From contig OZ026551.1 in assembly GCA_964020155.1 (NCBI GenBank), forward strand, positions 4,549,374 to 4,613,373: a stretch of DNA of 64,000 nt, written 5' to 3'. Every line of letters begins with the position of its first letter. Positions within the stretch are counted from its first letter, which is position 1. The notes below the pieces were generated by a model that was given only the letters and a program-made list of their open reading frames with translations, did no database searches and was not told where the DNA came from. Below, one piece after another: positions 133-46,591 of this stretch. Origin of the DNA: Chondrilla cf. caribensis. Taxonomy: Eukaryota; Porifera; Demospongiae; Chondrillida; Chondrillidae. A program made the translations under genes and the position numbers.

Positions 133-3100
133 GCACCCCACCCAAGGTAGAAGGTGTCACTGTGATGGTGTCTGGTAGTGCTACTTCTCCAATGATCAGT
201 GTGTCCTGGACAGCAGTTATCAGTAGTACAAGTGTAGCCTATACTGTGTACTACAGCAATAGTACCCAACCTCCACCTGGTAGTGCCTCCTCTGTTCAGA
301 ATATTACTGGTACCTCACATACCCTGAACTCATCACATGGTCTCCAAACTGGTACAACCTACTACATTTGGGTTTCTGCTGTAGCAACTAGAGGACAACT
401 GGAGGGACCAATCAGTGATAGAGAGAGTGTAAGTATCTATGGTAAGTTGAAATGGTAGTCAGAAACTGCATGTATAAGTCCACACTACTCACACAAATAC
501 ATTTTCATTGACAATAGTAATAGCTAGACAGTAAGTAGTCTATGTAATAACTTGAGCATATTGCCTTTTCCACTTACGTAGTGGCTCCAGTTCCTGAGAG
601 TGTATCAGTTGTCCCTACACCATCAGAAGGTACTCTGAGGGTAACATGGACCAGACCAACTGTCAGTGGTGGTTCCACCATCACCAGCTATTCCATACAA
701 TACAAAAGGTCCAATGAAATGACTTACTCTAGTAAAACCGTCAACGGGGGAGACATCACTTTATCAGATATCACTGGTCTGGACCCATTCATGCATTACA
801 GTGTGAGGATTGCTTCTATCAATGAACTAGGAAGAGGACGCTACAGTAGGATTGTCAGGGCTACCACACATGGATGTGCGTAGGTTCAATACGGTTACAT
901 GTATAGTACATACCTCATATCCATGTACAGTAGGTTAACTGGATAATGAGTAAGCTGCATATTAACTATTGCATGTATGTGATTTATTAACCCATCATGT
1001 CCATGCACATATAACTTCTGAATCAATTCATTTACAGCATCTCACACATCTCATTAGTTGTATTTTTGATATAATAGATGCTCCACCCCTTTCTAATGTA
1101 AGGGCCTCCCCCATGTATTGAATTGTACATTTTACATATTACTGTACTCAGTGTAAGTTCAATGGACTTCAATTTATATGTAATACATACAAATTAAAAG
1201 TCCATTGAACTCCACAGTTGCTCACTCCCCACTTTCTTCCAATCTCCTCAGTCCCCGGACCGGTATCCGGACTGACATACAATGTAATTTCTGAAAGTAG
1301 TGTAAACATCAGTTGGAGTGAACCAGATGAACCAAATGGAGTCATAGTGGGGTACTCTGTGAGATATGGAGATTTTGAAGGGAATGTCGACACGGAAATC
1401 CTAGTAGAAAGTCTCAACTTCATTGTTCATGGACTCTGTGAGTGTGCCTGGATAAGCATAGTTTTACATGTATCCACAATTTCTTCCATGTCTGTTTCTA
1501 GTGAGGTACATTCCATACAATGTTACAGTCTCAGCAAGGACCTCAGTTGGAGAAGGTGAACCATCTTCTATTGTATTCTTCACTTTGGAAGGAGGTGAGG
1601 ACCTCTATTTGCTATTATATGACAAGACTCATGGAATATAATCTACTTCTTAATTTATCCTACTAAGTGTATCAGTTTCATTTCTATGCTTATATCTCTC
1701 ATCTCTGTTCCCCTACATCCCAGTACCAACAGCACCACTGGATGATGTTGATGTAGTTGCCCTTGGTGATGGCTCGGTACAAGTTGGATGGAAACCACTC
1801 TCATTGAGGGAGGCTAGGGGATTCCCCCTTTATATCATTTCCTACATGTCAGACGATGGTGCTGTTTTCGGAAGTGTCAACACTACTAATTCTAGTGTCA
1901 TCATCACAGGACTGAATCCCAACATCGGATATAGCTTTACAGTTCAAGTTGCAACTGGGAGTGGAAATGGACAGGCAACAAAAAGTAAATTATTTGTACA
2001 TATATTGCCTATCTGCATGTCCATTCATTTCATGTGAGCCATTCAACTTTATGTACTGGGCAACCAGTTTCAACTATTCCCCTTATATTTATGTAGAATA
2101 CTTGAAGGGCACTCTGCCATCTCCATCATGTGATACTACTACAGTTACTGTTGGAGCATTCATTGGTGGTGCAATATTTGGGGCTGTTACTGTTCTGTTG
2201 GTGGGGGGAATAGTGTTTGGCATATTTAAGCTGAGAAGGAAACGTAGCAATAGAAGCACTAAACAGGAAAGGTTTGTCTTGTTATTTTAACTATGAGATG
2301 TGTTTGTGATATCAGGACTCCATCCACTTGGGGTGTGGCAGGTCCCCACCCACCCCCGACATCTCCAGTTTCCAACCCTCCACTAAAATTTTACAAGTTG
2401 CAAAGACTACTGAAATTATGACATGTCGGTGGTATGGCCAACAGCACAATGACCAACACACATATGATTTGAATGTTACATCCAAGACCAATTATAAGAG
2501 CCTGGTAGCAATTGCCTTCTGCCAGGACTGGTCATAAAACTATAATGAGATTTTACGAAGACGTCATTTTGATGCAACTTCTCGTGTAAGATTATGAGTG
2601 ATATATATTACCCTGGCTGCTCACCTCGGTTAGCCTGAAGAACAGCTGCTGGTACTTATAATATATAAGAGCACAACAATATCATGACCATTGTACTTCT
2701 AAATCAATTGAGCTTGAACCACACAGCAGACTAGTGATGCTTTATCATTGATTAATTGTTTACACAATATACTAACCAAACTGTTATTGGTATACAGGCT
2801 ATATTCTCTGGTTGCCCTACTTACTACGTACATAAACAGAGAAATCTTCTGCCTGAAGTTTGATGTTACCTCTCAGATTGTGTCTAGAATTCATACTAAG
2901 TCGGCCATGTACAAATGTCTAATATTACCATGCATTGGTCTGAAATTCAGTCCTATATCCAATCCAATCCAACACAAGCCTAGCTACTGGGTTATTGGGT
3001 TTCACACAAGATTGATAATATTAGTGTTTTATTGTTAACTGTTGGTAAGTAGGTTTACTTTTAAGGGTTACGCCAAACTTATTAAGTGCTATTGTGTAAA

Positions 3101-44300: not shown

Positions 44301-46591
44301 TCTATAAAGATATGTAAATGCACTCCATTAGTTTTGTACTGGGGCAATTTTTGGTATTTACGTATTTTGCAAACAGCTCCAATGTTTTCACAACATTCGT
44401 AGAATTCGTGAAATTGCTGGAAAAATATAAATGGTTACATACAAGACTGACTTACGACATCATAGGATGTCCTTTCATTTCAATGTCGTATTTATCTATC
44501 CAATATTGGATGCTAGGAGGGCAAGTATAGCATGGATCAACCACAATGGACCCTAATCCACGGGTCTTCAATAGATTTGTAGTTTCTTTGGACTAGTGTG
44601 GTCATTAGAGGTGCTTCAATATGTATAAAATCACAGGTGGTTTGTTTTTGGGTAGTTTTCAATGTAGACTTGTTTCTAATGAATGCTCCATTGCATGCTG
44701 TTCAGTGTTGAGACATCATGGTCTTAAGTTACCACTCATAGCAGTCAACTTTACTATAATGCATACATTACATGGTGTCCTTGAATATGATTTTTTGTGT
44801 TTTTCATAGGACCTCAAGTGCAGAGTGATTCTGGTGTGGTAGGAGGACTGGTTGTTGTGGCTGTGTTGGCAGTTGTGTTCCTAGTGCTCCTGACGTTGGT
44901 CGTGGTGGTGGTGTTAGCCAGAAGATTCAATTTGTATAGAATGGGGAAAGTACCGTATGTGTGAGTGTGTGTGTGTGTGTGTGTGTGTGTGTGTGTGTGT
45001 GTGTGTGTGTGTGCGCGTGTGTGTGTCTGCATGGGTGTGTATATGATATGTGTTTTTTACATGTTACGTGTATTTATCAGTATCACTGTATGTTATATGT
45101 ATTCGTGGAAGCTGTCACACACACATGGAATGGTGTTACATGTGTGTGTAGTTAATACATTAAGGATAGTGGGTGGCATCAGAAATTGAAATCACAAGAC
45201 CAACTACAATTGTCACTTGACTATACATAATTATGGGATGGGTATTGCATATTCTATATTGTTGTTTTATCTGATCCTTATCAGATCTTCATGTGTGAGC
45301 ATATGTACGTATATTATGTCATATGAGTATGTCTGTGTATACAGGTTTCATTGATCATACCCATATATGAAGGTGTGCACACAAACACACACACGAATGC
45401 ACACAAACTCACACACACACACACACACACACACACACACACACACACACACACACACACACACACACACACACACACACACACACACACACAACACACA
45501 CACACAAACACACACACACACAACACACACACAAACACACACACACACACACACACACACACACACACACACACACACACACACACACACACACACAACA
45601 CACACACACACACACACACACACACACACACACACACACACACACACACACAAATGTAGCAATAGAAACACGGTGACTAAAGATGAAAGCTTTGATTTGT
45701 TATTTTAACCATGAGATGTGTTTGTGATGTTAGGACTCCGTCTATTTGGTGGGGGGTGGCAGGTAAGACCTCACCTACCCCCGAAATATCCGATTTACAG
45801 TTCACCACTCAATCTAAAACAGTTGCCCTGACTATTGGTGGTGTGGTTGAATCTGGCTACCACAAATATGAATAATCCGAAGCCAATTGAGGGAGACTAC
45901 ATGGTACAAATGGTTTTCTGATAATCACAAACCTGTAATGAGTTTTAAAGATGCATGATGCCATTCTGACACACCTCTTCATGTAGGATAATCATGATGG
46001 TATGAAGTACCCTGGCTACCCATCTTGGTTAACCTGATGAACAACTGGTACTGTGCTATATAACACAAAAATATCATTGTATATATTGTATACTACATCT
46101 ACCATCAATGTTAATAATTCATCACATGAACAGCTCCCATCAACCACAAGGTAGACTTGTGTCTCCTTACCGTTGATTGATGACAATGTTATTGGTATAT
46201 ATATTGTTATTGGTGTCATTTTGAAAACTGATGCAGCCAATTATTGAATCAATCCATTGGATTTGATCATCCAATCTCTGTCTTTTCCCTTCAGTCCGCA
46301 CGAAGCAAGATATGCTGAAGTACTTGAGAGAAACCCTGCATCCGATTATGAGCTACCAGTGAATAAAAAGTAGGTGTATTATTTAAATGCTTCTCTACAC
46401 TTATTATATTATATAAGTTTGTGTAAATGTGTGTATCAGCCAATTTCAGTGTATCAGACTTGGTCATCCGCCCTATCTCATTTCTCCTCAGTCCACAAGA
46501 GGCAACATATGAAGAAGTCGTGACAAGCCGTGCGGTCCAACATGATACTAATATCATTGTTTCTTATGATTCTGCCGATTTGAAAGCATAG
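41339..46591 (+). CDS. Receptor gene F: signal peptide, four FN3, distinct TM, shared two-exon tail
   Basis: Coding exons: 41339-41390 (signal peptide MVKSRSFSLFAACTLLAG), 41553-41867, 42451-42741, 43220-43501 and 43866-44228 (four FN3), 44810-44960 (TM), 46295-46369 (tail 1), 46492-46591 (tail 2, TAG). The total of 1629 nt is 542 codons plus stop, with phase 1 in the ectodomain and phase 2 in the tail. FN3-1 has an extra cysteine pair (TVCYST, AVCVNTT). The TM is a long Val/Leu run (VVVAVLAVVFLVLLTLVVVVVL) followed by ARRF and is unrelated to the glycine-rich TM of A to E. Tail 1 carries ARYAEV and DYEL; tail 2 carries TYEEV and SYDSA (ITIM position +3 changed to Ala). The tail exons and adjoining introns are homologous to E, so the gene is a chimera. 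The last acceptor of the ectodomain abuts a CA repeat and the TM donor sits inside a GT repeat. Confidence 0.8.
42133..42367. mobile_element. MITE-like element in intron 2 of gene F
   Basis: Left end CAGTCAAACCTCTCCATAAC, with right end the near-complement of CAGTCGAACCTCCTTACAAC. An internal direct repeat of the left end starts at 42188. TA flanks the left side only; the right side is TT. A related copy begins at 63905 in gene G. Confidence 0.65.
42802..43110 (+). repeat. Two GT-rich tracts in intron 2-3 of gene F
   Basis: GT tracts at 42802-42949 and 42984-43110 are separated by GTGGTGATCACCTGAGCAATTG, which is also a piece of the 357-bp satellite. The left flank (GTAGGATTGTGCTGG) matches 47655-47670, so the pair 42750-42965 and 47625-47825 are copies of one repeat. 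Confidence 0.85.
43763..43862 (+). repeat. (CA)n tract forming the 3' splice-site region of an exon in gene F
   Basis: About 100 nt of CA with CG interruptions run directly into CCAG at 43862-43865, the acceptor of the fourth FN3 exon. There is no ordinary polypyrimidine tract. Confidence 0.9.
44958..45032 (+). repeat. (GT)n tract containing the TM-exon donor of gene F
   Basis: The donor GTGAGT at 44961 is the first part of a 70-nt GT tract. Confidence 0.9.
45369..45653 (+). repeat. Long (CA)n tract in the TM-tail intron of gene F
   Basis: About 285 nt of CA with AACAC interruptions. Its 3' edge coincides with the start of homology to the gene E TM-tail region. Confidence 0.95.
45654..45707 (+). 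pseudogene. Relic 3' end of an A-to-E-type TM exon inside a gene F intron
   Basis: GTAGCAATAGAAACAC and the following bases through TTGTTATTTTAACC match the end of the gene E TM exon and its donor (37438-37487, encoding SNRNTKEER and then the retained-intron stop). The donor AAAGGTTTGT is changed to AAAGCTTTGA, so it cannot be used. It lies immediately after the CA tract and marks where a foreign ectodomain and TM were joined to an E-like tail. Confidence 0.7.

Follow-up and report, generated by a model that had tools for sequence, protein, structure and literature searches.

A stretch of 64,000 nucleotides from the sponge Chondrilla cf. caribensis (the window; C6:4549374-4613373, C6 being contig OZ026551.1 of a 137 Mb, 37-contig assembly) holds six tandem receptor genes, A to F, which join fibronectin type III (FN3) and other ectodomains to short cytoplasmic tails with conserved tyrosines. 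They belong to a larger cluster on C6, in which very similar ectodomains also stand on predicted receptor-type tyrosine phosphatases. We lean, with much room for doubt, towards reading the cluster as a paired-receptor-like array, in which shared ectodomains would signal through a phosphotyrosine tail in some genes and through a receptor tyrosine phosphatase in others. All of the work concerns this one assembly, with gene models predicted from its sequence. The best match of its cox1 gene (contig C37, TGA read as Trp) is to a named Demospongiae cluster, at 91%, ahead of named anthozoans at 87% and of two other named sponge entries (Thoosa, Dendroceratida) at 83%; a demosponge is the most likely source, in support of the early-branching animal proposed by the first-pass annotation, which saw the letters of the window.

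A larger cluster with phosphatase genes

How large is the cluster? It comprises 13 type-1 tails, 16 matches to a type-2 tail and at least 16 phosphatase catalytic exons on C6, and is several times larger than the six genes of the window. The first-pass annotation missed both this larger cluster and the ectodomains on receptor-type tyrosine phosphatases. The phosphatase exons were found by scanning minus-strand neighbours in the same cluster; a family search placed at least 16 exons spanning the catalytic loop at C6 4309418-4844635, all on the minus strand, a count that is a lower bound because 150 of 290 candidates were scored, and in which one exon is not necessarily one gene.

Six phosphatase copies lie in the examined region (m2, m4, m5, m6, m7 and n1), and the SAGVGRTG exon is intact in all six; m1 is labelled a phosphatase by genome matches alone. 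The models of m2 and m7 give 1287 and 1248 amino acids, each a single open chain of 21 exons with continuous phases, running from inside the immunoglobulin (Ig) domain to near the end of the catalytic domain (m2 with one of its two copies of exon F2). The order is Ig, FN3 units (nine in m2, eight in m7), a transmembrane (TM) exon from phase 1 to 2, a wedge (FEDEY or FEEEY) and the catalytic domain; the juxtamembrane exons of m7 were identified by comparing m5, m2, m7 and m6. Pfam Y_phosphatase matches m7 at 6.2e-82 and m2 at 7.4e-88, and the motifs KNRY, WPD and HCSAGVGRTG are intact. Together with the predicted TM segment, these motifs indicate that m2 and m7 are receptor-type tyrosine phosphatases. 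The best PDB chains in phmmer searches are PTPRS and LAR, although chains with two domains have an advantage there through summed scores; a second phosphatase domain is visible as genome matches only.

Two side observations concern these genes. A minisatellite (VDVSLGWCI in one frame) is common to m4 and m5, between the TM and phosphatase exons (C6:4471570-4472000 and C6:4451200-4451600). At C6:4624017-4645438, on the minus strand, n1, with phosphatase and FN3 exons, adjoins an FN3 gene with a type-2 tail; this neighbourhood appears to be the same pairing of tail and phosphatase in a diverged branch.

Ectodomain similarity between the classes

Many ectodomain exons of the phosphatase and tail genes are 90-97% identical in DNA. 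Exon F1 of m1, m2, m6 and m7 is 95-97% identical to its best tail-gene match (96-97% for m2 and m7), the same range holds for F6 of m2, m5, m6 and m7, and the Ig exon of m7 is 91% identical to that of the tail gene m3. When m3 was compared with the phosphatase gene m2 in blocks of 100 DNA columns, the identity was 85-97% in the Ig exon and 94-97% from the exon end through the Ig-F1 intron. Exon by exon, the nearest neighbours switch between genes and between classes. On seven exon trees, built without two distant F6 copies, the class label needs three changes (Ig and F7) or four (the five others), compared with one if the classes were separate.

A mosaic is also seen within the window. Gene D is B-like (92-99%) from 23432 through F1, an exon alike in B, C and D; it is C-like (94-97%) at 24385-24744, where its identity to B drops to 76-81% in the intron, and 3' of 24744 it is nearer to C in nearly all blocks. 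The exchangeable ectodomains on a shared tail that the first-pass annotation described are thus borne out by D, and the patterns as a whole indicate exchange both between genes and between the tail and phosphatase classes.

Two classes of tyrosine tail

The type-1 tail exon has 13 matches in the genome, all at C6 4432716-4595958, ten on the plus strand and three on the minus strand. TYEEV is present in 12 of them, and position -3 is D or E in all 13. The immunoreceptor tyrosine-based inhibitory motif (ITIM), tested as [ILVS]xYxx[ILV] in the cytoplasmic tail of a type I membrane protein, is found in nine, including A to D. It is absent from E, where the tail stops early at AYN, and from F, where it reads SYDSA; both genes carry an additional YAEV exon of phase 2-2 (39600-39680; 46295-46369). 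The common tail exon proposed earlier therefore holds as far as TYEEV is concerned, with the additions in E and F and with a TM exon of its own and an E-like 3' end in F, and the proposed ITIM of A to D stands for one tail class. In shuffles of the B tail an ITIM arises in 2.9% and two YxxPhi motifs 10-30 apart in 0.4%; conservation across copies is the stronger argument for the tail motifs.

The type-2 tail has 16 matches at C6 4382035-4860971 (weakest E 0.09) and reads VEAIYE.VDE...SPAYEGV. Fourteen were read, one of the others lying outside the examined sequence and one being a weak match. Both tyrosines are kept in 13 of the 14, and the ratio of nonsynonymous to synonymous differences per site (pN/pS) is 0.34 over 13 tails. 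The TM exons of this class are 44-58% identical to those of type 1 (14 matches). The pair of [DE]xxYEx[VI] and AY[DE]xV is maintained in these two divergent classes.

An immunoreceptor tyrosine-based activation motif (YxxL/I x6-12 YxxL/I) was rejected by spacing, as the two tyrosines stand 24 residues apart in type 1 and 19 in type 2, mostly with V at +3. For a kinase, no exact HRDL[AR]xxN or DFGL[AS]R occurs in 248 kb of the cluster, of which 17.7 kb is N and in which an exon boundary could hide one.

Compatibility and swapping of cytoplasmic ends

Can one ectodomain be joined to either end? In A to F the TM exon runs from phase 1 to 2 and the tail exon or exons enter in phase 2; m2 and m7 use the same TM phase, and type-2 genes appear to do likewise, judging from translated junctions. 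Because the TM phase is shared and the tail and phosphatase-side exons both enter in phase 2, the cytoplasmic modules would be plug-compatible. Gene F shows a swapped end: its 3' similarity to E starts at 45652, corresponding to 37434 inside the TM exon of E, and a long CA repeat ends at about 45652, adjoining the start of the E-like part. Of the 13 tails, 11 have a dinucleotide TG/CA run of 10 or more units in the 200 bp on their 3' side, compared with 6.6% of random positions; since the copies are related, these are not 13 independent events.

The models of A to F contain no phosphatase domain, and the window has phosphatase relics only:

47165..47476, plus strand, decayed TM exon of receptor protein tyrosine phosphatase type with flank, 76% identical to m7
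61563..62117, plus strand, decayed first two phosphatase-domain exons (DDHSRVVLSTPDE, then a stop), 77-80% identical to m7 and m6

The second relic joins, via GT-rich sequence, DNA found elsewhere 3' of a tail exon. Conversely, an intron in the phosphatase part of m6 contains two tail exons, between TG repeats. Alternative splicing of m6 to these exons was rejected, because the corresponding exon of m2 and of m7, from which m6 was judged, ends in phase 0, while a tail needs phase 2.

Gene models in the window

Splice-site modelling gave six open models, all on the plus strand, with 8-14 exons each, AG/GT sites, continuous phases and no internal stops, in agreement with the six tandem same-strand genes first placed at 133 to 46591. 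Gene A is cut by the window edge, its signal peptide (at -1916) and Ig exon (at -1614) both being 5' of it. Ig and FN3 exons are of phase 1-1; the exception is E, in which the signal-peptide exon and two EMI exons end in phases 2, 2 and 1. A to D each have one Ig. The features are as follows.

133..3425, plus strand, gene A (part), open model (fn3 1.8e-44): four FN3 units in exons 133-441, 582-875, 1252-1437 with 1502-1594, and 1724-1984; TM 2097-2271; tail 3311-3425 (TYEEV...IAYDSV)
4075..11948, plus strand, gene B, 1077-amino-acid model (fn3 8.5e-89): signal peptide 4075-4123; Ig 5875-6213; nine FN3 units; TM 10551-10725; tail 11834-11948 (TYEEV...VAYDSV)
12411..21659, plus strand, gene C, modelled from the Ig exon on, with signal-peptide exon 12411-12462 found separately: Ig 17181-17516; six FN3 units; TM 20300-20474; tail 21545-21659
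22328..28837, plus strand, gene D, mosaic model: signal peptide 22328-22382; Ig 23616-23954 (B-like); six FN3 units, C-like from about 24385; TM 27150-27324; tail 28723-28837
30661..40039, plus strand, gene E, model: signal peptide 30661-30809; EMI-like 32295-32426 and 33047-33147; five FN3 units; TM 37291-37465; extra tail exon 39600-39680 (YAEV); tail 39943-40039 (TYEEV, AYN, stop)
41339..46591, plus strand, gene F, model: own signal peptide; four different FN3 exons; own TM 44810-44960; E-like tail exons 46295-46369 (YAEV) and 46492-46591 (TYEEV, SYDSA)
62608..64000, plus strand, start of gene G: F-type signal peptide; FN3 exon from 62838; runs beyond the window

How firm are the ectodomain calls of the first-pass annotation? 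Pfam scans of A, B, E and F give strong FN3 matches (1.3e-25 to 8.5e-89), and in C and D FN3 was assigned by exon identity to B. Single-gene Pfam supports the Ig call weakly, with no match at E<=0.1 over the Ig exon in A or B, and the call needed the paralogs: Ig_3 was found in eight of ten Ig copies (best E 2.1e-4; 10 of 11 copies in the profile, p3 omitted), and a PDB profile search with the Ig copies yielded nine Ig proteins among its 11 sequences at E<=10, with LRIG1 at the top (E 0.0056). AlphaFold gave no reliable fold for the Ig domain in three window copies (mean predicted local confidence, pLDDT, 39.7). The EMI of E stays below the Pfam cut-off, with 21.8 bits against 25 (E 3.4e-4, profile 3-69 of 69). 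A protein-database search with the whole of B found 74 FN3-containing proteins (bacterial, Dscam, L1, neogenin and others) at identities up to 44%, and the Ig of B alone had no relatives at E<=10 among 116 word-sharing candidates scored.

Some other elements were noted. A second signal-peptide-like exon of B (MGIFGIFFVLYIIVILAIKDK) lies at 4989-5051, between its first signal-peptide exon and its Ig exon, and copies of it, similar in DNA with small gaps, stand upstream of the Ig exons of D and p3; the two exons of B are possibly alternative first exons. Intron 1 of C holds an open 658-amino-acid pogo/Tc5-like DDE transposase with a C-terminal PHD finger at 13952-15928 (DDE_1 2.4e-16, PHD finger 3.9e-8). 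A satellite-like array (357-bp unit, 19.3 copies, 96% match) occupies 54300-61214 between F and G, and a second array, with units of 161, 207 and 368 bp, lies at 49608-52344.

Selection along the exons

The ratios of mean nonsynonymous (dN) to mean synonymous (dS) divergence are, from high to low, Ig 0.93, F4 0.91, F3 0.90, F2 0.77, F5 0.72, F7 0.67, TM 0.64, F1 0.61, tail 0.58, F6 0.54, F8a 0.53, F9 0.47 and F8b 0.19, in sets that left out copies with a stop, with coverage below 85% or with less than 45% of the top score. Mean dN and dS are 0.236 and 0.253 for Ig, 0.049 and 0.081 for F1, 0.279 and 0.527 for F8a, and 0.201 and 0.433 for F9. Variation in the Ig exon is mainly in alignment columns 41-70 and 98-117, which are loop regions by position only. 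The first-pass annotation had named dN/dS along the exons as a check; for Ig, at about 0.9, the answer is neither a value above 1 nor clear purifying selection.

Discussion

The anatomy of the cluster is well supported: gene structures and exon phases follow from the sequence in the modelled genes, phosphatase motifs are intact, and the mosaicism and the conservation of two tyrosines recur from copy to copy. How might such receptors work? One ectodomain can be joined to either a short tail with two tyrosines or a juxtamembrane wedge with a phosphatase domain, and recombination and gene conversion would shuttle ectodomain segments between the two classes. Upon ligand contact the tail may become phosphorylated and draw in SH2 proteins; SH2 domains of the Src family are suited to pYEEI-like sites. 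Phosphatase partners for the same or overlapping ligands would oppose this signalling, so that a threshold for recognition might depend on the ratio of tail to phosphatase receptors. Much of the specificity would lie in the membrane-distal Ig, one of the most divergent exons. The ligand may be self (allorecognition), a symbiont or a pathogen, and a role in allorecognition is possible. A bolder version, in which a sponge recognition complex carries one Ig/FN3 repertoire on two plug-compatible modules, with exon exchange producing substrate-like and phosphatase-bearing receptors for shared ligands and holding them in pairs, as a candidate basis of self/non-self recognition and an independent origin of paired-receptor logic, is speculative, and we think it unlikely.

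Several points weigh against the paired-receptor-like array. Support is low for numerous branches of the exon trees, and the trees lack a control with shuffled labels. The pN/pS of the Ig exon is 0.94 (bootstrap 0.74-1.22), which is not above 1, and because the interval includes 1, relaxed constraint is indistinguishable from diversifying selection. Nor is Ig unique, the ratios of F3 and F4 being nearly as high and the mean dN of F8a higher (0.279 versus 0.236). No ITIM consensus occurs in the 14 type-2 tails. Elsewhere in the genome, C17 and C18 carry both FN3 and phosphatase clusters and C4 and C7 carry FN3 clusters, so that expansion by itself is unremarkable. Some of the array is in decay: the Ig exon of p1 has a stop, p0 is a 3' remnant and the E tail is truncated. 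Finally, the gene models are themselves predictions.

Are these simply ordinary adhesion receptors, LAR-like phosphatases with truncated derivatives, whose tails carry endocytic or scaffold YxxPhi motifs? An Ig and FN3 ectodomain with a receptor phosphatase is the LAR plan, the best PDB chains agree with it, YxxPhi also fits the sorting signal read by AP-2, and the FN3 and phosphatase expansions are genome-wide. But both tail classes retain an acidic residue at -3 and YE in their first motif, which suits phosphotyrosine signalling better than sorting, and in our judgement the number and mosaicism of the genes go beyond a housekeeping adhesion set. This explanation is doubtful, with a real chance of being right.

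Alternatively, the cluster may be an expanded, fast-turnover family of innate immune or symbiont-recognition receptors that reads microbes. Immune families often show copy-number expansion, gene conversion and pseudogenes. Other sponge receptor families are expanded too (PMC10855680); against this, no domain found here is known as microbe-binding, and we consider the proposal unlikely.

The narrow allorecognition reading takes the cluster as a histocompatibility locus, where polymorphic Ig ectodomains would bind self or non-self and ITIM-like tails would settle whether contact ends in fusion or rejection, on the model of Hydractinia Alr. Against it, an older candidate exists in the sponge aggregation factor, and dN/dS is not above 1. 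A single clustered locus, mosaic ectodomains, a divergent Ig exon and the ITIM consensus in 9 of 13 tails speak for it, as do the Hydractinia and Botryllus candidates, which bear ITIM, hemITAM or core YxxPhi motifs in the account given in part of PMC12065747. Also against it, the main text of a graft transcriptome study in Amphimedon (PMC5450542) is without the words immunoglobulin, fibronectin, phosphatase and receptor. We rate this narrow sense as rather improbable.

That the array is mostly decaying duplicates, with tails and chimaeras such as F as functionless by-products of repeat-driven recombination, would account for the stops in the Ig of p1 and the tail of E, the relics in the window, the exons stranded in m6 and the (TG)n adjoining 11 of 13 tails, but is very unlikely given that all six window genes and both modelled phosphatase genes are open through 8-14 and 21 exons and that dN/dS is low in F8b and F9 and pN/pS low in type-2 tails.

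What would a paired-receptor-like array in a sponge mean? Between sponges, cnidarians and ascidians the proteins proposed for allorecognition show no conservation, while ITIM-type signalling is common to the cnidarian and ascidian candidates, as stated in a section of PMC12065747. If our reading is true, the ITIM-type and core YxxPhi tails would extend this signalling logic to sponges. Full-text literature searches, in which most subscription journals were not covered, gave no paper on such a sponge cluster, and pairing of this kind, with phosphatases that would share the ectodomains of tail receptors, was not met in them. The long-open question of self/non-self recognition in sponges would become testable at one locus by genotyping.

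Comparison with known systems

Type IIa receptor phosphatases (LAR, PTPRS and PTPRD) share with m2 and m7 the plan of Ig, FN3, TM, wedge and phosphatase, and are their best PDB matches; the cluster genes differ in having one Ig, a tandem expansion and sister genes in which a tyrosine tail replaces the phosphatase. R3 receptor phosphatases (DEP-1, SAP-1) also have FN3 arrays, and one is reported from Amphimedon in a passage of PMC5336234, but they are without Ig, and R3 catalytic domains score below type IIa in the phmmer comparison. The fester co-receptors of Botryllus resemble the cluster in the ITIM and core YxxPhi tails of a linked receptor family; as portrayed in the relevant part of PMC12065747, they differ in their Sushi and Ig domains and in having a separate fester-family protein as partner, with no in-chain phosphatase described there. 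Hydractinia Alr, with 41 genes in the accounts excerpted from PMC11999971 and PMC12065747, likewise consists of many linked membrane receptors of the immunoglobulin superfamily with tyrosine motifs in an early-branching animal; it is likened here by description, not by sequence, and lacks the FN3 arrays and phosphatase class of the sponge cluster.

The closest parallel is with vertebrate paired receptors (CEACAM, Siglec, CD300 and KIR), which are clustered, have near-identical ectodomains kept alike by exchange, and end in differing signalling parts, with ITIM-type tails in one class (PMC5112662, PMC5701461 and PMC3533184). They differ in that the partner class of the sponge cluster contains, in place of an activating motif, a phosphatase within the receptor chain itself, and in that its ectodomain is an Ig with a long FN3 array; the likeness is drawn from genes alone. 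At that level the likeness claimed by the first-pass annotation stands, as clustered genes with near-identical ectodomains and different predicted signalling ends are what is found on C6.

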